Positions 1 to 62,642 of a DNA stretch of 64,000 bases are shown here, piece by piece. The notes beneath the pieces are model-generated. The model was given only the letters and a program-made list of their open reading frames with translations. It searched no databases and was not told where the DNA came from. The translations under genes were made by a program, and so were the position numbers. The first letter of the stretch is position 1. Every line of letters starts with the position of its first letter. The stretch is from Fibrobacter sp. UWB4 (GTDB taxonomy: Bacteria; Fibrobacterota; Fibrobacteria; Fibrobacterales; Fibrobacteraceae): the NCBI RefSeq assembly GCF_002210345.1, contig NZ_MWQI01000009.1:62001-126000 (forward strand), given 5' to 3'.

Positions 1-174
1 CGTGCGTACGAACGCATCAAAAAAGAGACGGAAGATTATTACCGCCGCGTGGTGGCGATTGCGACTGAGGAAGATGAAACGGAACAGGTTTACCGCTTGA
101 ACGTGCAGTTGTTCCCGCTGAGCGAACGCTTGAATAAAAATGAAACGGATTTAAATAAGGACAAAACGAAATGA
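1..174 (+). CDS. TIGR02147 family regulator, C-terminal end (partial)
   Basis: The first 57 codons of the window are open in frame 1 and end at TGA. The peptide carries the family's C-terminal hallmark, T-E-Q-V-Y-R-L-N-V-Q-L-F-P-L-S-E-R-L, nearly identical to the ends of the two complete TIGR02147 proteins here (5265-6146 and 42262-43098). TIGR02147 (DUF4423) is a paralogous family expanded in Fibrobacter, thought to be cytoplasmic and probably DNA-binding; its true role is not established. The stop overlaps the start of the downstream lipoprotein gene (ATGA at 171-174), so the two are probably translationally coupled. The 5' part lies outside the window. Confidence 0.85.
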   Translation, partial: RAYERIKKETEDYYRRVVAIATEEDETEQVYRLNVQLFPLSERLNKNETDLNKDKTK

Positions 175-3083
175 GATGGAATGTGTATAAAAGATTTAGA
201 AATGGCCTTGCAAATGCATTGTCGATTGCCGTGGCGACTGTCTTTATGGCGGGTTGTTCCGATGTTGACGTCGCTGGCGGAGCTTCGGGTGATGCTGGCG
301 TCGTTGCGATTAAGGATCGTGAAATTGCAGGCGTGACGCAGAAGGGGCCGTTTGTTGCGGGGTCTGCGGTGACCGTGCTTGGAATCGATTGCAAGTCGAT
401 GAAGCTCTCGGACGAGCATTTTGAAGGCGAGGTCAAGAGCGAAAAGGGTGACTTTACGGTGGATGATGTTTCACTCAAGTCGTCGTGCGCAGTGCTTGAG
501 GCTACGGGAAAGTACCGCAGCGAAATTACCGGCAAGATGTCGTCGGGTGAAATTACGCTCCATGCGCTGACAGACCTTAAGGACCGCAAGAACGTGAACG
601 TCAATGTGATTACCGAGCTGGAATACGAACGCGTGATGTATCTTGTGACCGAAAAGAAGATGAATTTCGCGGATGCAAAAAAACAGGCCGAAAAAGAAGT
701 GCTTGCAGCTTTCGGTATCGCGGGCAACTTTGATAGTTCCGAAGACTTGAACATTTTCGGAAAGGGTGACGGGAACGCGGCTCTGCTTGCTGTGAGTGTG
801 CTGTTGCAGGCGGAAACGGATGTGGCCGGAATCGAGAAACGCCTTGAAAAGTTTGCGGATTCGTTTGCGGAAACTGGCAAGTGGAATGATTCTTCCGCAA
901 AGACTGCAATTGAAAAGTGGCGAGTTGCCGCTATGGCTGACGGTACTCTTGATTCGATTCGCAAGAATGTCGAAAGCTGGGGCTATGCCGATGAAGCGCC
1001 TGATTTCGAGAAATATATCGAAACCTTCGGTGACTCTGTTACCCTGGGCAGTGAATACGACGCAACTGCAAATACGCTGAAAGACTTGCGCGACGGCCAG
1101 ACTTACAGAACCGTAAAAATCGGCGATCAGGTGTGGATGGCCGAGAACTTGAACTTTGAAACAGCGTTCAGTTCTTGCTACAACGATAGTGCAGAGTATT
1201 GCGAAAAGTATGGCCGGTTGTACACCTGGGCCACGGCGGTGGGCAAGTCGGAGGATGAGTGCGGGGTAGGAAAGGAATGTAATCTGCCATCTGGGAATAT
1301 TCGTGGTGTTTGCCCCGATGGATGGTATTTGCCTAGCGAAGATGATTTTGTGGCTTTAATCAAGGCCGTGGGTGACGAAAAAGGAGCTGGCTCTAAACTG
1401 AAGTCTACCGATGGCTGGAATGACGATGATGGTGAAAGCGGCAACGGCACTGACGCTTTCGGGTTCTCGGCGCTGGCTGCAGGCTTCGGCCATCCGGGTT
1501 ACTATGGCGTGGGTTACACTACGAGCTTCTGGGGTTCTACGGAGTGCGGTAGCGAGGGTGTTCCGGAGACCGGTAACGGCTGCGCGTATGCGATGTACTT
1601 GGACTATGACGATGTCAACGTAAGCTTCAGGGGTTATGCCGCTAAGGACTTTGGGTACTCTGTCCGCTGCGTCAAACGTGATGACGGAACTGTTCCGGCA
1701 TCCAGCAGCGGTTCCGCAAAGGCGGATGCCGGCAGTAAATACGACGCCTCTGCAAATACGCTGAAAGACTTGCGCGATGGCCAGACTTACAGAACTGTAA
1801 AAATCGGTGGTCAGGTATGGATGGCGGAGAACTTGAACTACGAAGTGGAGAATAGTATCTGTTATGAAAATTCCGCGGATAGCTGCGCCAAGTATGGCCG
1901 CTTATACACTTGGGCTGCGGCTATGGATTCCATAAAGACAGGCTGTGGTTATGGAGTGGCTTGCTCGCAGACTTTGCCAGCCCAGGGTGTTTGCCCAAGC
2001 GGCTGGCACTTGCCCAGTAATACTGAATGGAGTGCGCTGATCATGGAAGCGGGTGGACCAATTGTTGCAGGAGTGCATCTCAAGGCTCGGACGGACTGGT
2101 ACAGAACGGGAAGAGGCACGGATGCCTTTGGTTTTACTGCGCTCCCTGCGGGTCTATGGAACAACGATGGCGGTTTTTACAACTCTGTTTACGAAACTCT
2201 TTTCTGGAGTTCTACTGAGGTCGATAGTATCAAAGTGTACACTTTGAACTTGGACTACAGCGAGAAGGGAGCGGGTATAGCCTTCGCTGGTAAGGACTAC
2301 GATGCGCGTTCGGTTCGTTGCTTAAAGAATAATGATTCTGTAGTAAGTAGTTCCAGTAGTTCTGTGGCTTCTAGCAGCAGCGTTAAGATTGCGTTGGCCT
2401 GCAAGTCTCGGTATCAGGATGATTGCAAATATGATACCCTGACTGATGAACGCGACGGCAAGGTTTACAAGACCGTAAAAATCGGCAATCAGGTGTGGAT
2501 GGCTGAAAACTTGAATTATGCGTCCTTGCAACCTACGGATAGTTTGGATTCGACCAGTTTCTGTTACGAGAATGATCCCGATAATTGTGAAGAGGATGGT
2601 CGTCTGTATCTATGGAGCGCGGTCATGGATAGTGCTGCGACATGGAGCGATAATGGTAAAGGCTGCGGTTACGGTGTTGTCTGTTCTCCGACGTTCCCTG
2701 TACGTGGAGTTTGCCCGGCTGGCTGGCATGTGCCGACTCGTGATGAAGTGATAGAATTATTAGATGCTGTTGGTGGAGTAGATGTCGCGGGAGATATGCT
2801 CATATCTGAATATTCAGGTTGTATAGATGAAGTGGATCTTTATGGTTTTTCGTTCCGCCCTACAGGTCGCAAGAGAAGTAGCGGGTACTATGACGATGAT
2901 GGTGAGTATGGGTATATGTGGACAACAACGGATGACTATTGGAATTCAGACGAGTTTTTCCTCAAAAATAACGAACCGTTCGAACTTGTTGCGGCATTCT
3001 CCATGTCGAAAGCGGGAGGCAATCTTGGTATACACGGAGGATACAAAAATATGGGTTTCCCCGTCCGCTGCATCAAGGACTAG
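171..3083 (+). CDS. Large lipoprotein with three FISUMP (Fib_succ_major) domains
   Basis: A 970-residue protein with a lipoprotein signal peptide (lipobox M-A-G-C, lipid Cys near residue 29), so probably an envelope or surface lipoprotein. The mature end begins C-S-D-V-D-V-A-G-G. Residues about 35-300 form a module shared with the proteins at 3108 and 6198 (key stretch Q-K-G-P-F-V-x-G-S-A-V-T-V). Three FISUMP domains follow, starting near residues 304, 531 and 757. Each has Y-R-T-V-K-I-G-x-Q-V-W-M-A-E-N-L-N at its head, G-R-L-Y-x-W in the middle and V-R-C at the end. Serine-rich linkers separate domains 1/2 and 2/3. FISUMP function is unknown; display or ligand binding is an inference. The first 90 or so bases of domains 1 and 2 are almost identical (1048-1140 and 1732-1824), which implies internal duplication. 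The ATG at 171 is used because it overlaps the upstream stop. Confidence 0.9.
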   Translation: MRWNVYKRFRNGLANALSIAVATVFMAGCSDVDVAGGASGDAGVVAIKDREIAGVTQKGPFVAGSAVTVLGIDCKSMKLSDEHFEGEVKSEKGDFTVDDVSLKSSCAVLEATGKYRSEITGKMSSGEITLHALTDLKDRKNVNVNVITELEYERVMYLVTEKKMNFADAKKQAEKEVLAAFGIAGNFDSSEDLNIFGKGDGNAALLAVSVLLQAETDVAGIEKRLEKFADSFAETGKWNDSSAKTAIEKWRVAAMADGTLDSIRKNVESWGYADEAPDFEKYIETFGDSVTLGSEYDATANTLKDLRDGQTYRTVKIGDQVWMAENLNFETAFSSCYNDSAEYCEKYGRLYTWATAVGKSEDECGVGKECNLPSGNIRGVCPDGWYLPSEDDFVALIKAVGDEKGAGSKLKSTDGWNDDDGESGNGTDAFGFSALAAGFGHPGYYGVGYTTSFWGSTECGSEGVPETGNGCAYAMYLDYDDVNVSFRGYAAKDFGYSVRCVKRDDGTVPASSSGSAKADAGSKYDASANTLKDLRDGQTYRTVKIGGQVWMAENLNYEVENSICYENSADSCAKYGRLYTWAAAMDSIKTGCGYGVACSQTLPAQGVCPSGWHLPSNTEWSALIMEAGGPIVAGVHLKARTDWYRTGRGTDAFGFTALPAGLWNNDGGFYNSVYETLFWSSTEVDSIKVYTLNLDYSEKGAGIAFAGKDYDARSVRCLKNNDSVVSSSSSSVASSSSVKIALACKSRYQDDCKYDTLTDERDGKVYKTVKIGNQVWMAENLNYASLQPTDSLDSTSFCYENDPDNCEEDGRLYLWSAVMDSAATWSDNGKGCGYGVVCSPTFPVRGVCPAGWHVPTRDEVIELLDAVGGVDVAGDMLISEYSGCIDEVDLYGFSFRPTGRKRSSGYYDDDGEYGYMWTTTDDYWNSDEFFLKNNEPFELVAAFSMSKAGGNLGIHGGYKNMGFPVRCIKD

Positions 3084-3107
3084 ATTTTAGAAAAGGAAGA
3101 ATAGCTT

Positions 3108-5075
3108 ATGTTCACGGAAAAGAATTCAATTTTTAAGTGGTGTAGTTTCTTTGGGATTCTTGCAATGAGCGCCATGTTCTGGGCGTGTTCCGATAATGTT
3201 GCTGGTGGCGCTTCGGGTGATGCAGGCGTCGTTGCAATCAAGGATCGTGACATTGCGGGTGTTTCGCAGAAGGGACCGTTTGTCACGGGTTCTGCGGTGA
3301 CCGTGCAGGAATTGGACGGCATCACGCTCAAGCAAACTGGCAAGAGTTTCAAGGGAACTATCAAGAGTGACAAGGGCGACTTTGCCATCAAGGATATCAA
3401 TTTGCAATCGCAGTACGCGATTCTTGAAGCTAACGGTTATTACCGTGACGAAATCTCTGGCAAGAAGTCTTCGGGAACGGTGACGCTCCGTGCGCTCACG
3501 GATCTTTCAAACCGCAAGACGGTGAATATCAACTTGCTCACGCATTTGGAATACGAACGTGTGAAGTTCCTCGTGACCGAGAAGAAGAAACCCATTGCTG
3601 AGGCGAAGGCTCAGGCGGACGAAGAGATCCTTGCGGCGTTCGGCATTGAGGGCGATTTCGGGAAGCCCGAAGACTTGAACATCTTCGAATCAGGCGATGG
3701 CAACGCGGCGCTCCTTGCGGTGAGCGTGTTGATGCAAAGCGATATCGATGTGGCGGGGCTTACCGAACGCATGGGCGAGTTTAGCATTGCTCTTGCAGAA
3801 GGTGGCAGCTGGGATGATGCCGATACCAAAACCGCAATTGCGGATTGGGCTTGCGATGTAGACCTTAAGGGATCTCTTGCGAATGTGCGCAAAAATGTTG
3901 AGAGCTGGAAATATGCGGATTCCGTGCCTTTATTCGAAAAGTACGTGACGAACTTCTGGTGGGATAATTACGGTCTCGGTGTTTGCAACGCAAAACGCGA
4001 AAACGAAACCAAGCGTAATGTGAACAAGCTGAGCAAACTGTACAACGAATACTTCGTGTGCGAAAAAGGACTCTGGCATATTCCGGGCGATGATGCGAAA
4101 TTCAGCTCTTCGTCTTGGAGTGGAGGGGCTAGCAGCTTTGGCGATGGGTCGTCGAGTTCGATTTATGATCCGTTTGTCAGCTCTTCTTCGAGTATGCCCG
4201 AAGATACGATTCCGCCTCTTCCTGCGGATCTCGATTTCTTCGATTCGACATATTCGTTCGACGGCTATAGAAGCTTTGGCGAAGGCAAGCAGGAAGTGTG
4301 GTTCCTCACCTCCCCGGGACGACTGGTTAACGACCGTGAAAGACGGGATTCCATCGCGAGTGCGTTGGTAAATCTGATGGGGACGCGTGGATTCGCTTTT
4401 GAAGGCATCATAAATAATGATTCCTTGGATAATGTGAGGTGCGATACGCTGTCGTATGTCTATTCGTTGAAAAAAGAAAACGTAGTCTACAAGATTTCCA
4501 TTACGAAAGAATTAGGTATGGGCATTATGTATGGCTCCAGCTATTTCTTCAAGGTGAAGGTCGTGGTACTGAAAGATGGCTTCGAGGAAATGCCGACGAC
4601 TGATTATAGCTCGATACGCTTCTTTAAGGATTTCCCGGAAGAACTTGCCTTTATGGAAGAATATTCCTCGACGAAGGTCCGTGCAGATTATGATGACGAT
4701 TCCCTTATGATTAGGTGGCAGTTCCGTCGGAACGTCGATTCGACAAAATCGCAGCAGTACCAGTTCCTTCCTGAACTGGCAAAAGAAAAGGCTGCCGAGG
4801 AGGCGTTTGAACCGTTTCTGGAAGCCTTGCCCGATAATGGCTTTACATTTGTGAAGTCGGATTCGTTGGGTCGGAATTCTAATATGAGCGATACGGTTGT
4901 CGTCCGCTATTTTTACGAAATGGAAACGCCTGCCGCGAGGTTTATGCTTCGCGCTGAAGTAGGGACTGTCGGTTATCCGTTTTTTGGAGTGTCGTATACG
5001 TTTAAGTATGGCTATACCGTAGATGTCAATGTCTACTATAAGCAGAAACCGGAACGCAAAGGAAAATCTGAATAA
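3108..5075 (+). CDS. Paralogous lipoprotein without FISUMP domains
   Basis: A 655-residue lipoprotein (lipobox F-W-A-C) whose mature end is C-S-D-N-V-A-G-G. Residues about 25-290 are homologous to the N-terminal module of the flanking FISUMP lipoproteins, but the C-terminal half differs. That half holds a Cys-flanked stretch near residues 290-330, a serine-rich linker (S-S-S-S repeated near residues 325-365), and about 280 residues that I do not recognise. The gene follows the first FISUMP gene after 24 nt and has a good ribosome-binding site (AAGGAAG about 9 nt before the ATG), so it is probably the last gene of that operon. A hairpin terminator follows. This looks like domain replacement on a conserved N-terminal chassis. 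Function unknown. Confidence 0.88.
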   Translation: MFTEKNSIFKWCSFFGILAMSAMFWACSDNVAGGASGDAGVVAIKDRDIAGVSQKGPFVTGSAVTVQELDGITLKQTGKSFKGTIKSDKGDFAIKDINLQSQYAILEANGYYRDEISGKKSSGTVTLRALTDLSNRKTVNINLLTHLEYERVKFLVTEKKKPIAEAKAQADEEILAAFGIEGDFGKPEDLNIFESGDGNAALLAVSVLMQSDIDVAGLTERMGEFSIALAEGGSWDDADTKTAIADWACDVDLKGSLANVRKNVESWKYADSVPLFEKYVTNFWWDNYGLGVCNAKRENETKRNVNKLSKLYNEYFVCEKGLWHIPGDDAKFSSSSWSGGASSFGDGSSSSIYDPFVSSSSSMPEDTIPPLPADLDFFDSTYSFDGYRSFGEGKQEVWFLTSPGRLVNDRERRDSIASALVNLMGTRGFAFEGIINNDSLDNVRCDTLSYVYSLKKENVVYKISITKELGMGIMYGSSYFFKVKVVVLKDGFEEMPTTDYSSIRFFKDFPEELAFMEEYSSTKVRADYDDDSLMIRWQFRRNVDSTKSQQYQFLPELAKEKAAEEAFEPFLEALPDNGFTFVKSDSLGRNSNMSDTVVVRYFYEMETPAARFMLRAEVGTVGYPFFGVSYTFKYGYTVDVNVYYKQKPERKGKSE

Positions 5076-5102
5076 AGTCGCGTTAAAAGGAAAAGTGAAA
5101 AA

Positions 5103-5134
5103 GACCTCGTTAGGAAACTAGCGGGGCCTTTTTT
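5103..5134 (+). terminator. Rho-independent terminator after the first lipoprotein operon
   Basis: GACCTCGTTAG and CTAGCGGGGCC pair around a GAAA loop (some G-U pairs, one mismatch) and are followed by TTTTTT. It lies 28 nt after the stop of the lipoprotein at 3108-5075. Confidence 0.8.
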
Positions 5135-5251
5135 GTATTCCTGGAATACGTGTTTTGTATTCCAAAATGCTAAAATTTGCGTAAATTTTGAGAAAATGGT
5201 AAAATTTGACTAAAAACGCCATTTTTGTATTCCGAAATTTGTGGAAATGTC

Positions 5252-5259
5252 TATATTTG
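5252..5259 (+). promoter_or_regulatory. TATATTTG promoter box, predicted leaderless start
   Basis: TATATTTG matches the Bacteroidetes-type -7 consensus TAnnTTTG. It ends 5 nt before the ATG at 5265 and no Shine-Dalgarno lies between, so transcription would begin at or next to the start codon. This is inferred from sequence only. Confidence 0.5.
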
Positions 5260-5264
5260 TACAC

Positions 5265-6146
5265 ATGAAGGAGATTGTTGAATACACAGACTACCGCAAG
5301 TTCATCCAGGATTACTACGATGAACGCAAGCGCAACTCGGCTTTTACGTGGCGCGAGTTTGCCCGCGATGCGGGATTTTCGTCGGCTGTGTATTTGAAGT
5401 ACGTTTGCGAGGGCAAAAAGAATCTGAGTGTTGGGGCGGCTGGGTCCGTTGCTGCGGCAATGGGGCTTGCCGGGTTCGAGCAAACGTACTTTGTCTTGAT
5501 GGTTTCGTATGCGCATGCGAAAGATGACAAGGCGAGACGTGCCGCGTTCGAGGAACGTTGTGCGCTCGCGCATGCCCACAAGGTGCGTGTGCTCGGGAAC
5601 GAGGAATTTGATTATTTCAAGTCGTGGAAAAATCCGGTGCTGCGCGAGATTGCTCCGCACATGCCGGGTGCAAAGCCTCTTGAAATGGCTCGTAAGTGCA
5701 AGCCGCAGATTTCTGCGGCGGAGGTTTCCGATACGCTTGACTTTTTGGTACGCGCGAAGCTCTTGAAGAAGGACAAGAGCGGAAACTACGAACAGACGGA
5801 CAAGTCGTTATCGATGGGGTCGGTCGATGTTGCGCCTGTGGCGGCCCGCGATATGCAACGCCAGATGGGGGAATTTGCGGTGAAGGCTCTGGACCTGCCG
5901 CTTTCGGAACGTGACATGTCGGGGCTTACCATGGGGCTTACGCGCCGTGCTTATGAAAAAATCAGGAAGGAAATCGCGGATTTTCGCCGCCGCATTGTGG
6001 CGCTCGCGAGTGAAGAGGACGATACGGAACAAGTTTACCGTCTGAATTTGCAGCTGTTCCCGCTGAGCGAACGTCTTGACGATAATTCGGCAAGCTCGGT
6101 TTCGGGTGATGGTGTTGGGAAAAGAAAGGAGAACGGTAATGATTGA
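5265..6146 (+). CDS. TIGR02147 family regulator
   Basis: A 293-residue protein counted from the ATG at 5265. That start gives the family's usual N-terminus (M-K-E-I-V-E-Y-T-D-Y-R), matching the one at 42262; an in-frame GTG at 5241 is less likely. Residues about 5-80 look like a helix-turn-helix region of the Xre sort (F-T-W-R-E-F-A, then S-x-V-Y-L-K-Y-V-x-x-G-K-K-N-L). The C-terminus carries E-Q-V-Y-R-L-N-L-Q-L-F-P-L-S-E-R-L. The family is a Fibrobacter paralogous group (DUF4423) of unknown precise role; control of the adjacent lipoprotein gene is an inference from repeated pairing. A promoter box sits right at the start codon. The FISUMP lipoprotein gene follows 51 nt after the stop, with a possible mini-ORF bridging the gap. 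Confidence 0.88.
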   Translation: MKEIVEYTDYRKFIQDYYDERKRNSAFTWREFARDAGFSSAVYLKYVCEGKKNLSVGAAGSVAAAMGLAGFEQTYFVLMVSYAHAKDDKARRAAFEERCALAHAHKVRVLGNEEFDYFKSWKNPVLREIAPHMPGAKPLEMARKCKPQISAAEVSDTLDFLVRAKLLKKDKSGNYEQTDKSLSMGSVDVAPVAARDMQRQMGEFAVKALDLPLSERDMSGLTMGLTRRAYEKIRKEIADFRRRIVALASEEDDTEQVYRLNLQLFPLSERLDDNSASSVSGDGVGKRKENGND

Positions 6147-6201
6147 TTGGTGTCGGATGCCGGCTCAAGGATTAGAGTTTAAAAAGGAGAAAGAATCGTG
6201 A
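6139..6201 (+). CDS. Possible 20-codon coupling mini-ORF between regulator and lipoprotein
   Basis: ATG at 6139 overlaps the end of the TIGR02147 gene and follows a strong Shine-Dalgarno (AGGAGA, 6127-6132, 6 nt before the ATG). It reads 20 codons (starting M-I-D-W-C-R-M-P-A) and stops at TGA 6199-6201, which overlaps the GTG start of the lipoprotein (6198). It could pass ribosomes from the regulator to the lipoprotein. No homology is recognised, so it may be chance. Confidence 0.25.
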   Translation: MIDWCRMPAQGLEFKKEKES

Positions 6202-9140
6202 AAAAACTTATAAGTAAATCGATTGCTTTGTTTATGGCAATTGTTTTGGCTGGCCTGCTTGCCGCTTGCTCGGATGGAAGAGTTGCTGGCGGCGTCACGG
6301 AAGATGCGGGGCTTGCCATCAAGGACTTGGATGTAGCGGGCTTGGCGCAAAAGGGGCCGTTTGTCAAGGGTTCTGCGGTGACGGTGCAGGGTGTTGACTG
6401 CAAGACGATGAAGTTCACGGAAGAGAAATTCTCGGGGAAGGTCAAGAGCAACAAGGGCGACTTTGACGTTGATGACGTGAATCTCTCGGCATCTTGCGCT
6501 TTGTTCGAAGTGTCCGGCTACTATCTCAATGAAGTTTCCGGTGAAAAGTCTTCGGATAAGTTGACGCTCCATGCGATTACGGATTTGAACGACAGAAAGT
6601 CTGTAAACATCAACGTGCTCACGGAATTGGAATACGAGCGCGTGATGAAGCTTGTCTCCGAAGAGAAGATGTCCTTTGACGATGCAAAAATGCAGGCCGA
6701 AAAGGAAGTCCTCGCGTCACTTGGTGTGATGGACCGTTTTGAATCGTTTGAAGGCATGAGCATTTATGAAAAGGGCGAAGGAAACGCAACTCTCCTTGCG
6801 ACGAGTGTGCTGTTGCAGTCGGATCTGGATGCAGAAAAGCTGGCAGGCCGTATGGATGACATTGCATCGTCCATCACGAAAAACGGCGAATGGAACGACG
6901 AAAAGGCAAAAACGGAAATGGCTGACTGGGCGGCAACCGCAAAGTCCGATGGCAAATACGAAGCGGTTCGCAAAAACCTTGAAAAATGGAGCGGCTCTGA
7001 TGAAATTCCCGAATTTGAAAAGGTCGTAGAAATGTATGGGGCCGATTCTACAATGACGGATTCCCGCGATGGCAAGGTTTACAGAACCGTGAAAATTGGT
7101 AATCAGGTCTGGATGGCGGAAAACCTGAACTTTAAAGTAGACTGCAGTTACTGCTATAATGATTCCGCAGAATATTGTACAAAGTACGGTCGCCTTTATT
7201 CATGGGCTGCTGCGAATAGAGCATGCCCTGACGGCTGGCACTTGCCGACAATGGACGAATTTGATACGTTGTTTGCTGCGGCCGGCGGGGAATCTATAGC
7301 GGGCAAGAAACTGAAGTCCGCTAGCGGCTGGAGAAATGGCGGCAACGGCACGGATGATTTTGGCTTCACTGCGTTGCCCGCTGGCATCAGATACGGCAAA
7401 GAAGTCTACTACAACTACGAGGGCGATCACGCGAATTTCTGGAGTTCTGTAAAGAACGGTAACGATAGCGCGAAATATGTGAACATGTTCTACGATTACG
7501 ATAATGCTCGCCCGCTCGTCCACGATAAGAATGATGGAATGTCGGTTCGTTGCCTGAAGGGTGAATCGACGGCCAAAGTAGAAACTGAGGTTCCTTCCGG
7601 ATGGAGCTGGGATGTGCCCAAGGAATTGCGCTTTAATCCGAATATCAAATATGATACGATGATTGACCCGCGCGACAAGCAGGTGTATAAGATTGTGAAG
7701 ATTTCGCCCAAAGGGAGCGATTATTCACAAGTGTGGATGGCCGAAAACCTGAACTATGCCGATAGCGTCAAGACGCCGAGCTTGAAAGGCCAAAACTGGT
7801 GCTACAATAATGATGAGAAAAATTGTAAGGTAAGCGGTCGCTATTACACTTGGGCGGCGGCGATAGACTCTGTGGCTTTGGCAAACGATTCAAAGAATCC
7901 GCTGAATTGCGGTTATGGCAAGACGTGTGGAATTAATCGCGGAGTGCAGGGAATTTGCCCTGACGGATGGCATTTGCCGACGCTCCATGAATGGGGATTG
8001 TTGAGCGTAGCTCTGGGGAATGCTGGCGTGGCCGGAGATAGCCTCAAGGCGCTGACTGGCTGGGATTACGCCGGAACGGCTGACAATAACGGCGTAGATG
8101 CCTATGGATTTGCGGCGCTTCCGACCGGAAGGATGGTTTCTACATCTAGCTGGAGCAATGTTGGTTCTAATGTTTATTATTGGAGTTCCGAAGAGGATGG
8201 TACGTATGAAGCGCAATATTCGAATATAAACAACATTTATACTAAATTCTATTTGTTCCAAGGTTCAAAAAAATATGGACAGAGTGTACGTTGCATCAAG
8301 GGTGATCCTTCGACTGCAGCGATTAAATCTTCTTCAAGTTCTAGTGTTGACGAAACGAAGTCTAGCAGCAGTTCTGCAAAATTGAGTAGCAGTGCGGCTG
8401 TGTCTAGCAGTAGCTATGTTGTGACGAAAGAATGGAGCTGGGATGTTCCCAAAGAAGCCCGCTTTAATCCGAATATCAAGTACGACTCGATGATTGACCC
8501 GCGTGACAAGCGTGTGTACAAGGTGGTGAAAATCGAAGTGAAAGAAAGGGATTATTCGAAGGTCTGGATGGCGGAAAACCTGAACTATTCTGATAGCGTC
8601 AGGACCCCGAGCTTGAAGGGCAAAAGCTGGTGCTACCGTGACAGTGCAAAATATTGCGAAGTGTCGGGTCGCTATTACACTTGGGCTGCCGCAATTGACT
8701 CGGTGGCGCTTGTCTCTGATACGGTTGCTCCGTTAGATTGCGGCTATGGCAAGACTTGCGAACTTGGCGAGCAACGTATACAAGGAATTTGCCCAGACGG
8801 TTGGCACTTGCCGAATCGCGATGAATGGGGTTGGTTGAGCGTTTACTTAGGGAACGCGGGCGTGGCTGGCGATACCCTCAAGGCTTTGACTGGATGGGAT
8901 TATGCCGGGACAGAAAATAATAACGGCGTGGATGCCTATGGATTTACGGCGCTCCCGACCGGAAGAAGAGTCTCTGAAACTAGCTGGCGTAATATTGGTT
9001 CTGATGTTTATTATTGGACTTCCCAAGAGGAAGATGCGTATGAAGCGCAGTATTCGAACATGAATAACCAATACACCAAATTCTATTTGTACCAAGGCTC
9101 AAAAACTTATGGACAAAGTGTCCGTTGCGTGAAGGATTAA
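6198..9140 (+). CDS. Large lipoprotein with three FISUMP domains
   Basis: A 980-residue lipoprotein starting at GTG 6198, supported by AAAGGAG at 6185-6191 and by the signal peptide that begins there (lipobox L-A-A-C). The mature end is C-S-D-G-R-V-A-G-G. Residues about 30-285 are the module shared with the proteins at 171 and 3108. FISUMP domains start near residues 289, 490 and 767, each with V-W-M-A-E-N-L-N and a terminal V-R-C. A long poly-serine linker (near residues 710-740) separates domains 2 and 3. Domains 2 and 3 are close copies at the DNA level, both headed by W-S-W-D-V-P-K-E, which shows a recent tandem duplication of about 830 bp. It is paired with the TIGR02147 gene upstream. 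Envelope localisation is expected; the molecular function is unknown. Confidence 0.9.
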   Translation: MKKLISKSIALFMAIVLAGLLAACSDGRVAGGVTEDAGLAIKDLDVAGLAQKGPFVKGSAVTVQGVDCKTMKFTEEKFSGKVKSNKGDFDVDDVNLSASCALFEVSGYYLNEVSGEKSSDKLTLHAITDLNDRKSVNINVLTELEYERVMKLVSEEKMSFDDAKMQAEKEVLASLGVMDRFESFEGMSIYEKGEGNATLLATSVLLQSDLDAEKLAGRMDDIASSITKNGEWNDEKAKTEMADWAATAKSDGKYEAVRKNLEKWSGSDEIPEFEKVVEMYGADSTMTDSRDGKVYRTVKIGNQVWMAENLNFKVDCSYCYNDSAEYCTKYGRLYSWAAANRACPDGWHLPTMDEFDTLFAAAGGESIAGKKLKSASGWRNGGNGTDDFGFTALPAGIRYGKEVYYNYEGDHANFWSSVKNGNDSAKYVNMFYDYDNARPLVHDKNDGMSVRCLKGESTAKVETEVPSGWSWDVPKELRFNPNIKYDTMIDPRDKQVYKIVKISPKGSDYSQVWMAENLNYADSVKTPSLKGQNWCYNNDEKNCKVSGRYYTWAAAIDSVALANDSKNPLNCGYGKTCGINRGVQGICPDGWHLPTLHEWGLLSVALGNAGVAGDSLKALTGWDYAGTADNNGVDAYGFAALPTGRMVSTSSWSNVGSNVYYWSSEEDGTYEAQYSNINNIYTKFYLFQGSKKYGQSVRCIKGDPSTAAIKSSSSSSVDETKSSSSSAKLSSSAAVSSSSYVVTKEWSWDVPKEARFNPNIKYDSMIDPRDKRVYKVVKIEVKERDYSKVWMAENLNYSDSVRTPSLKGKSWCYRDSAKYCEVSGRYYTWAAAIDSVALVSDTVAPLDCGYGKTCELGEQRIQGICPDGWHLPNRDEWGWLSVYLGNAGVAGDTLKALTGWDYAGTENNNGVDAYGFTALPTGRRVSETSWRNIGSDVYYWTSQEEDAYEAQYSNMNNQYTKFYLYQGSKTYGQSVRCVKD
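7602..9137 (+). repeat. Intragenic tandem duplication of a FISUMP unit
   Basis: The segments 7602-8300 and 8434-9137 run in register, with long identical or near-identical stretches in both their heads (coding W-S-W-D-V-P-K-E) and their ends (coding G-Q-S-V-R-C). A serine-coding linker lies between them. This is direct evidence of duplication inside one gene. Confidence 0.85.
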
Positions 9141-9190
9141 AAACGTTCTTTGAACTCCTGTACTTGGGAGTTGGAAGGTGTCTAGGAGTA

Positions 9191-9223
9191 GGTCCCGCTA
9201 TGAAAAATGGCGGGATCTTTTTT
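9191..9223 (+). terminator. Rho-independent terminator after the FISUMP lipoprotein
   Basis: GGTCCCGCTA and TGGCGGGATC form a 10-bp stem (with G-U pairs) around a TGAAAAA loop, followed by a T-run. It lies about 50 nt after the stop at 9140. Confidence 0.85.
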
Positions 9224-42118: not shown

Positions 42119-42261
42119 CGGATTGCCCTAACCTATTGAACTGTATATAGATATCTTTATAGTGGTTCAGACCGCCCGCACTGTCTTGTGAAGGAATGAG
42201 GATTGGGTTTAATATGTTATTCGCATAGTGCGTGAGGAACCGTCTGACGTAAGGATTTTCT

Positions 42262-43098
42262 GTGAAGCCGATTTTTGAATACACTGATTATCGCGAATGG
42301 ATTAGGGATGCTTTTGAAGATTTCAAGAAGCGCAAGACCGTCATATCCTGGCGATACATGGCAATGAAACTCGGTGCAGATCCAGGAAATCTTCTTCGCA
42401 TTTCGCAGGGCAAGATCCACCTTGCCGTGAACTTCATCAAGCCGATGGCGGAATTCTTCGAACTGGATGAAAAGGAAGCCGCCTACTGGTCGGAGCTGGT
42501 TTATTTCGGTCGCGCCAAGAGCGACCAGGAAGCTTTGAACCATTACGAAAAAATGCAGGCGCTAAAGGGCATCCCTTTGAAGCGTCTTGCCAAAAAAGAG
42601 CTTGAATTTTACCGTCATTGGTACTACAACGCTATCCGTTCCGTAATCGGTATTTGTAATTTTAAAGATGATTATGAGGGTCTTGCCGAAAGTTGCACTC
42701 CGGCAATCACGGTTGAGCAGGCTAAGGATGCCATTAAGCTTTTGCATGACCTGAATATGATCTCTGAGGGTAAAGACGGGTACTGGAAAGTGAATGACAT
42801 GTTTGTGAGTACAGGTGGCAACTGGAGATCCGAAGCGGTTCGGACATTCCAGAAGGAGACGATTCGCCTAGCGGGTGAATCGCTTGAAAGACATGCGCCT
42901 CCTCTCCGCGACATTAGCACCGTCACCATGACGTTCAACATGAACGATATCCAGCTCATCCGCGAAAAAATCAAGGAGTTCCGCTCGGACTTGCTGCGCA
43001 TGTCGCAGGATGGCGCGGGTGACGACACGGTATTCCAGCTCAACGTCCAGCTGTTCCCGTTGGCGTTTATCAAGAAGTTGCAGGAGAAGTCAAAATGA
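42262..43098 (+). CDS. TIGR02147 family regulator
   Basis: A 278-residue protein starting at GTG 42262, which gives the family N-terminus M-K-P-I-F-E-Y-T-D-Y-R-E-W; AAGGA lies about 8 nt upstream. Residues about 5-75 resemble an Xre-like helix-turn-helix (I-S-W-R-Y-M-A-M-K-L-G-A, then L-L-R-I-S-Q-G-K). The C-terminus has the family signature V-F-Q-L-N-V-Q-L-F-P-L. Its stop overlaps the ATG of the lipoprotein gene (ATGA at 43095-43098), repeating the arrangement at the left end of the window. The gap before it (42119-42261) contains a TATCTTTATAGT box that could be the promoter. Probable cytoplasmic regulator; target unproven. Confidence 0.9.
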   Translation: MKPIFEYTDYREWIRDAFEDFKKRKTVISWRYMAMKLGADPGNLLRISQGKIHLAVNFIKPMAEFFELDEKEAAYWSELVYFGRAKSDQEALNHYEKMQALKGIPLKRLAKKELEFYRHWYYNAIRSVIGICNFKDDYEGLAESCTPAITVEQAKDAIKLLHDLNMISEGKDGYWKVNDMFVSTGGNWRSEAVRTFQKETIRLAGESLERHAPPLRDISTVTMTFNMNDIQLIREKIKEFRSDLLRMSQDGAGDDTVFQLNVQLFPLAFIKKLQEKSK

Positions 43099-44723
43099 AA
43101 TGGCTAGCCTGCATATTTTCAGCTCTTATGCTTTGGAGCTGCTCGGATAAGGTCGCAGGAGGCCCCGGCAGCGAAACGACGAACGGCATTGCCTACTTGG
43201 GCAATGGCGCTGTGGCGTCTTATGCACGTGTGGCGGTCAGGAGTGTCGATCACACTTCTACGGCCGATAGTGCTACTAATGAAATTGTGAACGCGGACTT
43301 CTACGCGGATTCCCTCGGTAACTTCTCGTTCGAGGCTCCGGAAGGCAAGTACCGCTTGACGATTGTGTATGGCGGTTCTGCCTACACTGGACTTTACTCG
43401 GGCGATACGACCTTGGGCGATGTAAGTCTTGAACCGACGGCCGCACTTGGCGGCTTGGCCGGCATGCCGGAGGATTGTGAATTTGTCTGGGTCGGTGTGC
43501 GTGGCATGGACGTGCTTGTGCGTTCGGATTCGACGGGACACTTTATGCTCTCGCAGCTGCCGTCGAACGACTCGTTGCAAGTGTATTTCTTGCGCGGTGA
43601 CGACAATACAGTTTATGATAACTTGTCTGTAAAGCTTGAGCCGAATGAAACGGAAATGATCGATCTTCAGCCGGAAAAGCAGGATACGCTCTCCGGGAAG
43701 ATTAAGATTGTGGCGGCGGCTAATGGCAAGGCGCTTCCGTTTGCCTCTCTCGCCATTCGTAAGGCGGATGCCCGTGTCGATTCCTTGCATGTGAGCAATG
43801 TCGTTGCCGAGGCGGACGCCTATGCGGATAAGGATGGCGTGTTCGTGATTGATTCGTTGAAGTCTGGCGATTACCGCCTCACGGTGATGCAGTCGGGCTT
43901 TGCGTACTCCAAGGTTCTTACTGCAAAGCAGATTGCAGCGCTTGATACGGTCAAGCTCCAGGAAACGGCGAACTACATGAGCCGTGTCACGCTCCATGCT
44001 GGCGAAAAATTTGCGTGGGTTGGCGTGTATGGTCTTGATGTGATGACGAAGACGAATGAAGAAGGCGTGTTCTCGCTTCCGATGCTACCTGCAAACGATA
44101 CGCTTGAATTTTATGTTGTCGATGGAAATGATAGCTTGTATGTAACAAAGCGCATTGCCCCTTCGAAGGGTTCTGCCGACTTTGACTATCCGTATGTCGT
44201 GATGCAGGACTTCGAAAACGTGAAGGATACCGGAAACTGGTATTTTAGCACGGATTCTGTTGGCTCCAAGATTCTGTCCAAGTCGTTCGATACGGATAAC
44301 GAGCGCAAGTCCAAGGTGTTCCACGGAAAGTACAACCTGGTGGGAACGAATAATATTTATGCTTGGGTTTTGACCGGCATGTTCCTCCGCGACGAAGGTT
44401 GGAACCTCTCCACGCTCGATTCTATTTCGTTCGATGCCAAGGGCTCGGGCCAGATTCGCGTGTCTCTTGAAAACTGGACCCGTGAATCTGAAGTTGCTGG
44501 GCTTTCGCTCAAGGCCGCCTCGGAATGGAAGGACCTGAATTCGCAAAAGTGGACGCATTACGTCGTGAAATTCGATGACCTGTGCTATACCGCCCAGGAT
44601 GTAAGCAACTGCTATATCGCATGGAATACGCTCAAGGACGATGTCCGCCAGCTGCATTTCTTCGTAAGAAATGGAACAGAGTTCTATCTGGACGATATAG
44701 TGCTCTATGGCGCTCTTTTCTAG
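43095..44723 (+). CDS. Lipoprotein with carboxypeptidase-regulatory-like repeats and galactose-binding-like C-terminus
   Basis: A 542-residue lipoprotein (lipobox L-W-S-C near residue 16) whose mature end is C-S-D-K-V-A-G-G, the motif seen in all lipoproteins linked to TIGR02147 genes here. Residues about 28-120 and 200-290 are carboxypeptidase-regulatory-like beta domains (F-S-F-E-A-P-E-G-K-Y-R-L-T and F-V-I-D-S-L-K-S-G-D-Y-R-L-T). Two more short repeats share F-V/A-W-V-G-V-x-G-x-D-V. Residues about 375-542 look like a galactose-binding or CBM11-type jelly roll (D-F-E-N-V, later F-Y-L-D-D-I-V-L-Y). It could bind glycans at the surface. Coupled by a 4-nt overlap to the upstream regulator. Confidence 0.85.
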   Translation: MKWLACIFSALMLWSCSDKVAGGPGSETTNGIAYLGNGAVASYARVAVRSVDHTSTADSATNEIVNADFYADSLGNFSFEAPEGKYRLTIVYGGSAYTGLYSGDTTLGDVSLEPTAALGGLAGMPEDCEFVWVGVRGMDVLVRSDSTGHFMLSQLPSNDSLQVYFLRGDDNTVYDNLSVKLEPNETEMIDLQPEKQDTLSGKIKIVAAANGKALPFASLAIRKADARVDSLHVSNVVAEADAYADKDGVFVIDSLKSGDYRLTVMQSGFAYSKVLTAKQIAALDTVKLQETANYMSRVTLHAGEKFAWVGVYGLDVMTKTNEEGVFSLPMLPANDTLEFYVVDGNDSLYVTKRIAPSKGSADFDYPYVVMQDFENVKDTGNWYFSTDSVGSKILSKSFDTDNERKSKVFHGKYNLVGTNNIYAWVLTGMFLRDEGWNLSTLDSISFDAKGSGQIRVSLENWTRESEVAGLSLKAASEWKDLNSQKWTHYVVKFDDLCYTAQDVSNCYIAWNTLKDDVRQLHFFVRNGTEFYLDDIVLYGALF

Positions 44724-61131: not shown

Positions 61132-61866
61132 ATGCGATTTTTTTGGACTGCTTTCCTGATTTTTTCTGTATCGCTTTGGGCGCGGCCCATCAACGATGGC
61201 AATAAGCTCTTTGCCGCTGGCGATTATGCCGGTGCGCTCGAAATGTACATGAAGGCCCGCGAAGCGGAACCCGCAAATCCGCTTTTGTTCTACAACATTG
61301 GAACATGCCAGTACAAGCTTGGCAATTTTGAAGAAGCCAAGAAGGAACTCGAAAGCGCCGTGCGCATGCCGGACAAGAATATGGCCGCGAAGGCGGCGTA
61401 CAACTTGGCAAATACGCATTTCCGCGTGGGCGAGAAGGCTCAAGAGCCGAGTGCCCGCATTGCGGCCTGGCGTGAATCGGTCGCTTATCTGAAAAAGGCG
61501 ATTGACCTCGATAACGATTTCGAAAACGCCAAGAAAAACGTCGAAATTGTCCAGCGCAAGCTGAAAGAAGAACTCGACAAGCAAAAAGAAAACAAGGACC
61601 AGAACCAGGATCAGAACGACCAGAAACAACCTCCGCTGAGCGATAAAGCAAAGCAGGTCCTGGCTCGTGCGCTCCAGCTCTGCAAGGATGGCAAGTACGC
61701 CGAAGGCAAACAGATGCTCGAGAACCTGATTGCCGAAGATGAAACCGCAAGCCAGTTGAGCGGTCACGTGCAGCGCATTGACGACGTCATCGAAATCAAG
61801 GCCGGCCGTAAGCCCAAGACGAAGATTGACGCCAGCAACACCGACAACGACCTGGAGGTGATCTAA
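61132..61866 (+). CDS. TPR protein of the Bat operon type (BatE/BatC-like)
   Basis: A 244-residue exported protein (signal peptide about 1-18). Residues about 20-135 hold TPR repeats (G-N-K-L-F-A-A-G-D-Y-A-G-A-L-E-M-Y; N-P-L-L-F-Y-N-I-G-T-C-Q-Y-K-L-G; A-A-Y-N-L-A-N-T-H). Then come an acidic Q/N/D/K stretch (near residues 150-167) and another helical pair. The build resembles TPR proteins of Bat (aerotolerance) operons. Those operons also carry von Willebrand-domain proteins and a MoxR ATPase, which are not in this window. The stop overlaps the start of the next gene (TAATG). The overall arrangement is suggestive, not proof. Confidence 0.75.
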   Translation: MRFFWTAFLIFSVSLWARPINDGNKLFAAGDYAGALEMYMKAREAEPANPLLFYNIGTCQYKLGNFEEAKKELESAVRMPDKNMAAKAAYNLANTHFRVGEKAQEPSARIAAWRESVAYLKKAIDLDNDFENAKKNVEIVQRKLKEELDKQKENKDQNQDQNDQKQPPLSDKAKQVLARALQLCKDGKYAEGKQMLENLIAEDETASQLSGHVQRIDDVIEIKAGRKPKTKIDASNTDNDLEVI

Positions 61867-62642
61867 TGGCTATGCTGAGACGAAAGACGTGGTTCGACAG
61901 GCTCACCAACCTTGACGAGAGACGAGAGAATGGTGTCATCCTGAGCGGAGCCGTTAGGCGGAGTCGAAGGATCTCTGTAGCTTTGGGTTTTGTATTGGTT
62001 TGTGCAATTTCAGCATTCGCGGCTCCGAAATCGGCTTCTGCCTACTATGGCGATGCTGCGTTCCAGTACATTGAAAACCGCTTGCCGACTGCAGAAATCA
62101 CTTGCAACGAAGGCTTGCAATACTACCCGAACGATCAGAAATTGCAGATGCTCCTCGACCGCATTCACGAGGCGAAGGACGAGCAAAAGAACGAAAATAA
62201 GAAGAACGATCCTAAGAACGACCAGAATCAAGACCAAAATAATCAGGATCAGAATCAGGACAAGCAGAACCAAGACCAGAATAAAGATCAGCAGAACCAG
62301 GATCAGAACCAGAATCAGAATGGCGACCAGAGTTCTTCTAGTGCCCAGAATGACCAGAACCAGGATCAACAGAATCAAGGTCAGAACGGTCAGTCTAGCA
62401 GCAGCCAGGGTGCTAACAGTTCCGATAGCAATGGCGGTGCCGGAGAGCAGCAACAGCCTGAACAGTCCGAAGGCAATTCCAGCGACAGTAACGGCGGTGA
62501 ACCAGAACAACAGCCGCTTCAACCTGGTGAAATGTCTCCCGAAGAGGCCGCCCAGCTCCTCAAGGATTTTGACGAACAGAACGGCGAACGCAAGCCCTGG
62601 AAACCCATCCGCGGCCAAGTCCGTCCGGCTAAGGATTGGTAA
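61866..62642 (+). CDS. BatC-like protein with Asn/Gln/Asp-rich repeats and a repeat-derived N-terminus
   Basis: A 258-residue protein. Residues about 1-35 are encoded by dispersed repeats (61914-61977). After them comes a normal signal-peptide core (A-L-G-F-V-L-V-C-A-I-S-A-F-A-A). Residues about 60-100 are TPR-like. Residues about 105-180 are a highly repetitive D-Q-N-Q/K-N-Q-D tract with S-S-S-S islands, and the C-terminus has M-S-P-E-E-A-A-Q-L-L-K-D-F-D, which resembles the end of BatC-like proteins. The Arg-rich n-region of the signal peptide (R-R-S-R-R) is read from the repeat. The start overlaps the stop of the upstream gene. It is probably periplasmic or envelope-bound; the original start may have been lost. 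Confidence 0.75.
   Translation: MAMLRRKTWFDRLTNLDERRENGVILSGAVRRSRRISVALGFVLVCAISAFAAPKSASAYYGDAAFQYIENRLPTAEITCNEGLQYYPNDQKLQMLLDRIHEAKDEQKNENKKNDPKNDQNQDQNNQDQNQDKQNQDQNKDQQNQDQNQNQNGDQSSSSAQNDQNQDQQNQGQNGQSSSSQGANSSDSNGGAGEQQQPEQSEGNSSDSNGGEPEQQPLQPGEMSPEEAAQLLKDFDEQNGERKPWKPIRGQVRPAKDW
61914..61977. repeat. Dispersed composite repeat at the 5' end of the BatC-like gene
   Basis: GACGAGAGACGAGAGA (61914-61929) followed by GTCATCCTGAGCGG...GTCGAAGGATCTCT (61935-61976). The reverse complement of the same pair is found in the M18 aminopeptidase gene. It encodes residues about 17-37. Confidence 0.8.

Follow-up and report, generated by a model that had tools for sequence, protein, structure and literature searches.

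TIGR02147 (Fsuc_second; DUF4423, PF14394 in Pfam) is a protein family whose label says only that it is paralogous. By the score of its hidden Markov model (HMM), three regulator genes are members of it in the 64-kb stretch of Fibrobacter sp. UWB4 DNA considered here (contig NZ_MWQI01000009.1, positions 62,001 to 126,000; below, the window), and each is closely followed by a gene for an exported lipoprotein. This regulator–lipoprotein cassette may be compared with four described systems. The HigBA-type operons have the same XRE-type helix-turn-helix (HTH), palindromes in their own promoter (putative sites in our case) and an overlapping downstream gene, but in the cassette the regulator carries a winged helix and a C-terminal domain in addition, and its partner is an exported lipoprotein of large size. 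The PrgX/TraA pheromone systems also connect a regulator with a lipoprotein; however, the cassette regulator is not a tetratricopeptide repeat (TPR) protein, and the signal peptide is not conserved. The Bacteroidota SusE/SusF and surface glycan-binding proteins (SGBP) feature a lipid anchor, a beta-sandwich stalk and a carbohydrate-binding tip, as predicted here, and the structural matches of lipoprotein 3 include SGBP-B of B. thetaiotaomicron. Unlike in those systems, no SusC/SusD transporter pair was seen, and a coupled HTH protein takes the place of a hybrid two-component system (HTCS) or an extracytoplasmic function (ECF) sigma/anti-sigma system. Finally, the FISUMP domain (Fib_succ_major; TIGR02145, PF09603) is carried by lipoproteins 1 and 2, but it is one head type among several, whereas the cassette is defined by the regulator and by a short motif following the lipidated cysteine of the lipoprotein (below, the tag).

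The genome paper on F. succinogenes S85 left the regulation of the plant-cell-wall machinery unanswered, with few recognisable regulators near the cellulase genes (PMC3079729). The cassettes offer testable regulators, candidate operators and accompanying surface proteins for this question. TIGR02147 has 31 intact copies in the genome containing the window, and no functional description of it was found. The first-pass annotation, made from the sequence of the window, had suggested that the partner relation might be undescribed. In agreement with that, no function, DNA sites or partner of TIGR02147 were found in the literature searched, although most subscription journals lay outside the search, and hence this is no proof of novelty. 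The family name was not met in that literature, and DUF4423 was met only in a Bdellovibrio proteome paper.

The genome (3.58 Mb, rumen-type Fibrobacter; the closest named relatives are Fibrobacter metagenome-assembled genomes, several labelled F. succinogenes) yields 35 matches in a TIGR02147 profile search, among them 31 intact genes, one apparently split gene and one broken copy. We read the downstream neighbour of each intact gene, picking start sites by the ribosome-binding site. In 30 of the 31 cases it is a lipoprotein gene starting at −20 to +51 nucleotides from the regulator stop; the lipobox cysteine in these 30 partners was assigned by a sequence rule, not by SignalP. As the background, we sampled 0.8 Mb of this genome in which TIGR02147 is absent, and a home-made gene caller gave 392 same-strand neighbour pairs there. 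A lipoprotein at −62 to +53 nucleotides is seen in ten of them (Fisher p = 3e-36). Overlaps by exactly four nucleotides were observed in 10/30 cassettes against 20/392 background pairs (Fisher p = 8e-6), and any overlap in 17 cassettes against 58/392 (Fisher p = 6e-7). From ATGA overlaps at the regulator ends 174 and 43098, the first-pass annotation had proposed a regulator–lipoprotein partnership, naming a genome-wide survey of overlap as the way to refute it. The overlaps are in place (171–174 and 43095–43098), and the survey, run with the sampled background, puts the partnership far above the operon level (30/31 vs 10/392) and does not refute it. The annotation had also read the tight coupling as a sign that the ratio of regulator to lipoprotein matters, as in sensor/anti-regulator pairs, which is at present a hypothesis. 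On the other hand, the loci, which had been taken for independent, are paralogous: regulators 1 and 2 share 79% identity.

The family was found in 113 of 120 Fibrobacterota genomes, representing 33 of 35 genera. A lipoprotein starts at −23 to +15 nucleotides in 81 of another 89 loci, 40 of these showing the four-nucleotide overlap, and the next set comprised 95 regulator–lipoprotein junctions, 74 of them at −4, many being orthologues. The same arrangement is seen in members of a small second phylum of five genomes, reached via a record labelled Bdellovibrionales, while Bdellovibrio itself was outside the survey. Thus the coupling is Fibrobacterota-wide and reaches a second small phylum. Downstream of the lipoprotein genes there are mostly unrelated genes or genes on the opposite strand, and terminator-like hairpins flank cassette 2. 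Taken together, the compared sequences indicate that the regulator–lipoprotein unit is probably a real, undescribed regulatory partnership.

The window contains the following features, all on the forward strand (G000 denotes the genome of the window, and L-numbers the TIGR02147 loci compared):

1..174, +, 3'-terminal part of regulator 1 (TIGR02147/DUF4423), whose complete gene has its start 5' of the window (G000:C9, match 61320-62126)
171..3083, +, lipoprotein 1 with three FISUMP domains, overlapping regulator 1 by ATGA
255..308, +, lipidated Cys and degenerate N-terminal motif of lipoprotein 1, VAGGASGDAGVVA
3108..5075, +, second lipoprotein of the same unit as lipoprotein 1, without a Pfam match; Cys at 3186, the same motif at 3198-3236
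5105..5126, +, terminator-like hairpin followed by a T-run, between cassettes 1 and 2 (consensus scan)
5135..5149, +, putative operator O1, palindrome GTATTCCTGGAATAC, found in the majority of 19 similar cassettes
5154..5168, +, putative operator O2, TTTGTATTCCAAAAT
5222..5237, +, putative operator O3, TTTTTGTATTCCGAAA, promoter-proximal
5265..6146, +, regulator 2 (TIGR02147, 293 aa) with XRE/HigA-like HTH, winged helix and C-terminal helices (fold as modelled for regulator 3)
6139..6201, +, 20-codon mini-ORF (open reading frame) overlapping regulator 2 and lipoprotein 2, the latter by GTGA
6198..9140, +, lipoprotein 2 with three FISUMP domains, GTG start with its own AAGGAG; Cys at 6267, motif at 6282-6320
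9190..9218, +, terminator-like hairpin at the end of cassette 2 (consensus scan)
42136..42170, +, imperfect inverted repeat 5' of regulator 3; a similar repeat is seen in close relatives only, and its operator role is uncertain
42262..43098, +, regulator 3 (TIGR02147, 278 aa)
43095..44723, +, lipoprotein 3: lipid anchor, motif, beta-sandwich stalk and C-terminal CBM11-like domain (predicted), overlapping regulator 3 by ATGA
43140..43193, +, lipidated Cys and full motif of lipoprotein 3, VAGGPGSETTNGIA

As judged from sequence comparison, it is quite likely that the cassette is an autoregulated, translationally coupled unit for a tagged polysaccharide-binding lipoprotein. The first gene would encode a cytoplasmic regulator, with an XRE-type HTH and a winged helix, whose binding sites in its own promoter are palindromes or half-sites specific to the gene and which regulates this promoter in whichever sense. 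The second gene would encode a lipoprotein, probably exposed at the surface, with the lipid anchor, the short tag, the beta-sandwich stalk and, as the head, a carbohydrate-binding or FISUMP domain. A ribosome ending the regulator may re-initiate on the lipoprotein at the ATGA and similar junctions, and in that case a single regulated mRNA would fix both levels. Dozens of paralogues would then keep varied plant-polymer-binding lipoproteins on display, each with its own switch.

The order of the genes is not absolute. The tagged lipoprotein directly precedes the regulator in L114; its position in L150 is on the minus strand, divergent from the regulator, across the operator of an orphan-clade regulator. 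Thus the partnership survives a change of layout. In the L043 and L094/L095 clades, no tagged partner is in view. The former, consisting of L043 (G000:C3:250616-251431), L271, L245 and L144, is a conserved clade that has no downstream tagged lipoprotein and keeps the GTTGT-N6-ACAAC palindrome.

The layout could be simply inherited, if one ancestral cassette has been duplicated repeatedly and the overlap kept without any function. The cassettes are indeed paralogous, and the distances between regulators correlate with those between ectodomains (r = 0.41). However, the linkage holds across genera and in the second phylum despite the divergence of the signal peptides and ectodomains, and the partner is retained in reversed and divergent arrangements; hence this explanation seems improbable.

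The tag of the partner lipoproteins, approximately AGG.SETTNG, follows the lipidated cysteine (consensus frequencies: G 83%, E 71%, N 87%). A tag profile trained only outside the genus distinguishes the linked lipoproteins in the genome of the window from the unlinked ones (p = 3e-10), none of the 44 sampled unlinked ones scoring above 4.2 bits. When 17 genomes were searched with an unbiased degenerate-DNA pattern, all 17 matches in the lipoprotein context were 62–122 nucleotides past a TIGR02147 stop, and the other nine matches were outside intact lipoproteins. In seven genomes without TIGR02147, this search produced zero matches in lipoproteins. Thus, in the searched genomes the tag is found in lipoproteins only beside TIGR02147. 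A short lipoprotein tag exclusive to one regulator family is a rare clue to a regulator–lipoprotein link across the cell envelope.

In orthologous cassettes, the identity is 67–99% for the regulator, 45–100% for the first 22 mature residues, 7–97% for the signal peptide and 31–99% for the ectodomain, which by this comparison diverges fast. Within the lipoproteins of the majority of the divergent pairs, no other part is preserved as well as the tag segment. In 27 lipoprotein 3 orthologues, GPGS(E/I)TTNG is kept, while the length of the linker between the cysteine and the tag varies.

The signal peptides, 7–47% identical in pairs with 78–88% identical regulators, bear on the possibility that the regulator has a piece of the lipoprotein's signal peptide as its ligand. 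PrgX and cCF10 of the enterococci provide a precedent for such a signal-peptide pheromone, and the lipoprotein gene does follow the regulator gene. However, orthologous pairs usually differ most in the signal peptide (identity down to 7%), and the regulator model features an HTH and a winged helix rather than the TPR fold of the RRNPP regulators. On these two grounds we reject the pheromone model, ascribing to it a very small probability.

The tag may serve a dedicated envelope pathway as a signal for sorting, processing or assembly, the two genes being merely co-expressed and the regulator answering a cytoplasmic metabolite. In the Bacteroidota, surface-export signals of lipoproteins sit right after the lipidated cysteine. 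The tag has the same position, and its variation is independent of the regulator divergence. A general sorting signal, however, would be expected on unlinked lipoproteins too, whereas it is seen neither there (0/44 in the same genome above 4.2 bits) nor in the genomes without TIGR02147; hence the general version is disfavoured. The dedicated pathway is compatible with the autoregulated coupled unit and seems to be a realistic possibility, somewhat short of an even chance.

Feedback from the lipoprotein is also compatible with such a unit. The regulator would recognise the tag on an unexported lipoprotein or on a processed fragment, so that the export state or supply sets the promoter; given the translational coupling, this feedback would act in cis. 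It is favoured by the presence of the tag in lipoproteins solely beside TIGR02147 in the searched genomes, with any ectodomain and throughout the phylum, and by its retention in the reversed and divergent layouts. Further, the tag is better kept than its flanks among orthologues and lies in a disordered segment (residues 1–27 with pLDDT, the predicted local distance difference test, below 50), as for a short linear motif, and neither the Pfam scan nor the structure search of the regulator revealed a known ligand-binding domain. On the other hand, the exported tag lies outside the cytoplasm, and no obvious transmembrane go-between is present in the cassette. Neither is the tagged partner seen for the regulator clades L043 and L094/L095. 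Moreover, the tag variation among paralogues is independent of the regulator variation when the ectodomain is accounted for (partial Mantel r = −0.015). This test gives no support to paralogue-specific recognition of tags by regulators, and since the tag distance does not track the regulator distance, the specificity of feedback would need action in cis. We consider feedback possible but doubtful, and the dedicated envelope pathway at least as likely.

In the stronger form, TIGR02147 and the SETTNG-tagged lipoproteins would be a new signalling pair, in which the regulator, translated immediately ahead of the lipoprotein, reads the tag while the latter is nascent or still a precursor. This is rather unlikely in our opinion. 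If true, it would mean that the cell keeps track of whether a particular polysaccharide-binding protein of the surface is made and exported, and that dozens of pairs with private operators form a repertoire of surface-display switches in the Fibrobacterota.

The regions upstream of the regulators contain repeated or palindromic words, different in each paralogue. The similarity between the distal and proximal stretches is higher within a promoter than between promoters (p = 4e-4, n = 31; p = 0.008 for 28 non-redundant ones). This within-vs-between-gene test replaced a per-gene shuffle test for direct repeats, which was weak (4/31 at p < 0.05). The inverted-repeat version yields p = 0.08 and is only suggestive. 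In cassette 2, the three putative sites (5135–5149, 5154–5168 and 5222–5237) recur in the majority of the 19 similar cassettes. They have changed together to ATGTTC in L330, matching the paralogue L037, and in the regulators of both L330 and L037, FSWH replaces FTWR at the beginning of the HTH. Conserved palindromes are seen 5' of other groups as well, for instance, GTGGACAAAAATGTCCAC and GTTGT-N6-ACAAC. These paralogue-specific promoter words indicate autoregulation, the binding itself being inferred.

A peculiar promoter is that of L047 (G000:C1, 5' of the TIGR02147 gene with the match 278521-279330), where about eight copies of the 7-bp word AATGACT directly precede the regulator start (L047:1941-1997). 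This may be a slippage-prone, that is, phase-variable promoter.

Several points weigh against the autoregulated coupled unit. As the cassettes are paralogous, they do not provide independent evidence of selection on the layout. The gene calls and lipobox predictions are home-made, the terminators are consensus matches only, and about half of the tags in the genome of the window are degenerate. The operator windows were picked after inspection, and the repeat test with other genomes is open to inflation by base composition. Several paralogues have no clear repeat, and regulator 3 has a merely locally conserved inverted repeat.

The family assignment of the regulators themselves is based on profile scores. 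The TIGR02147 scores (NCBIfam; curated cut-off 50 bits, across about 270 positions) are 332 bits for gene 2, 356 for gene 3 and 347.6 for the complete gene 1, the fragment of the latter in the window yielding 42.6. DUF4423 occupies the C-terminal half, with 107 and 110 bits in genes 2 and 3, and 29 in the fragment of gene 1 (cut-off 30). The model of regulator 3 (pLDDT 85.5, predicted template modelling score, pTM, 0.60) consists of the XRE/HigA-like HTH, the winged helix and long C-terminal helices. The PDB search with this model gave neither a full-length nor a TPR match. No solved structure was found by sequence for the regulator or lipoprotein 3, and no plasmid homologue of regulator 3 was found.

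A HigA-like HTH, together with the gene overlap, palindromic operator-like sites and many copies, might be seen as a toxin–antitoxin module, with the HigA-like autoregulator first and the toxin second. However, the partner is an exported lipoprotein of 226–980 aa with binding domains, and the Pfam scans found no toxin family. Such a module is hardly credible here.

Of the other TIGR02147 copies in the genome of the window, one is interrupted by a stop (G000:C1:810698-811219), and another is apparently split by contig ends (G000:C14:46310-46693 with G000:C3:7-483). Three Fibrobacterota genomes (G109, G015, G018) contain 60 to 88 first-look candidates each, a very large expansion of the regulator, with 19 per genome scored.

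The heads of the lipoproteins are diverse. Lipoproteins 1 and 2 have three FISUMP domains each (PF09603/TIGR02145 above the cut-off), while the profile scans found none in lipoprotein 3 and the 3108–5075 lipoprotein. FISUMP, high-copy in the Fibrobacteres, was described as putatively cellulose-binding and as a possible cohesin analogue (PMC4704652), and one FISUMP protein of F. succinogenes S85 had peptides on cellulose and none on glucose (PMC4619616). Among other partners, FISUMP, LamG, CBM4_9, pectate-lyase/beta-helix and carboxypeptidase-regulatory-like domains are found. The model of lipoprotein 3 (pLDDT 81.3, pTM 0.64) shows a disordered anchor with the tag, followed by beta-sandwich domains; for the domain at the C-terminus, the best fold match is CBM11 of Clostridium thermocellum (1v0a, E = 2.5e-7, TM-score 0.69 by target). 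The ligands may be plant polysaccharides.

An atypical junction is that of cassette 2. According to the first-pass annotation, regulator 2 (5265–6146) and lipoprotein 2 (6198–9140) are linked by the 20-codon ORF at 6139–6201 overlapping both. This ORF is present as stated, but its role as the link is not supported, unlike the partnership itself: it is present in none of the 19 similar cassettes of other genomes when the junction is compared, and on this ground we reject it as a functional linker. Its start is at −8 from the regulator stop, the position of the lipoprotein start in three paralogous cassettes; it has a good ribosome-binding site and stops out of frame after 20 codons. Hence the mini-ORF is probably a decayed former start, which may still hand ribosomes on to lipoprotein 2.

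Finally, the 3108–5075 lipoprotein is tagged and has an N-terminal region in common with lipoprotein 1, which suggests a duplication within the operon.

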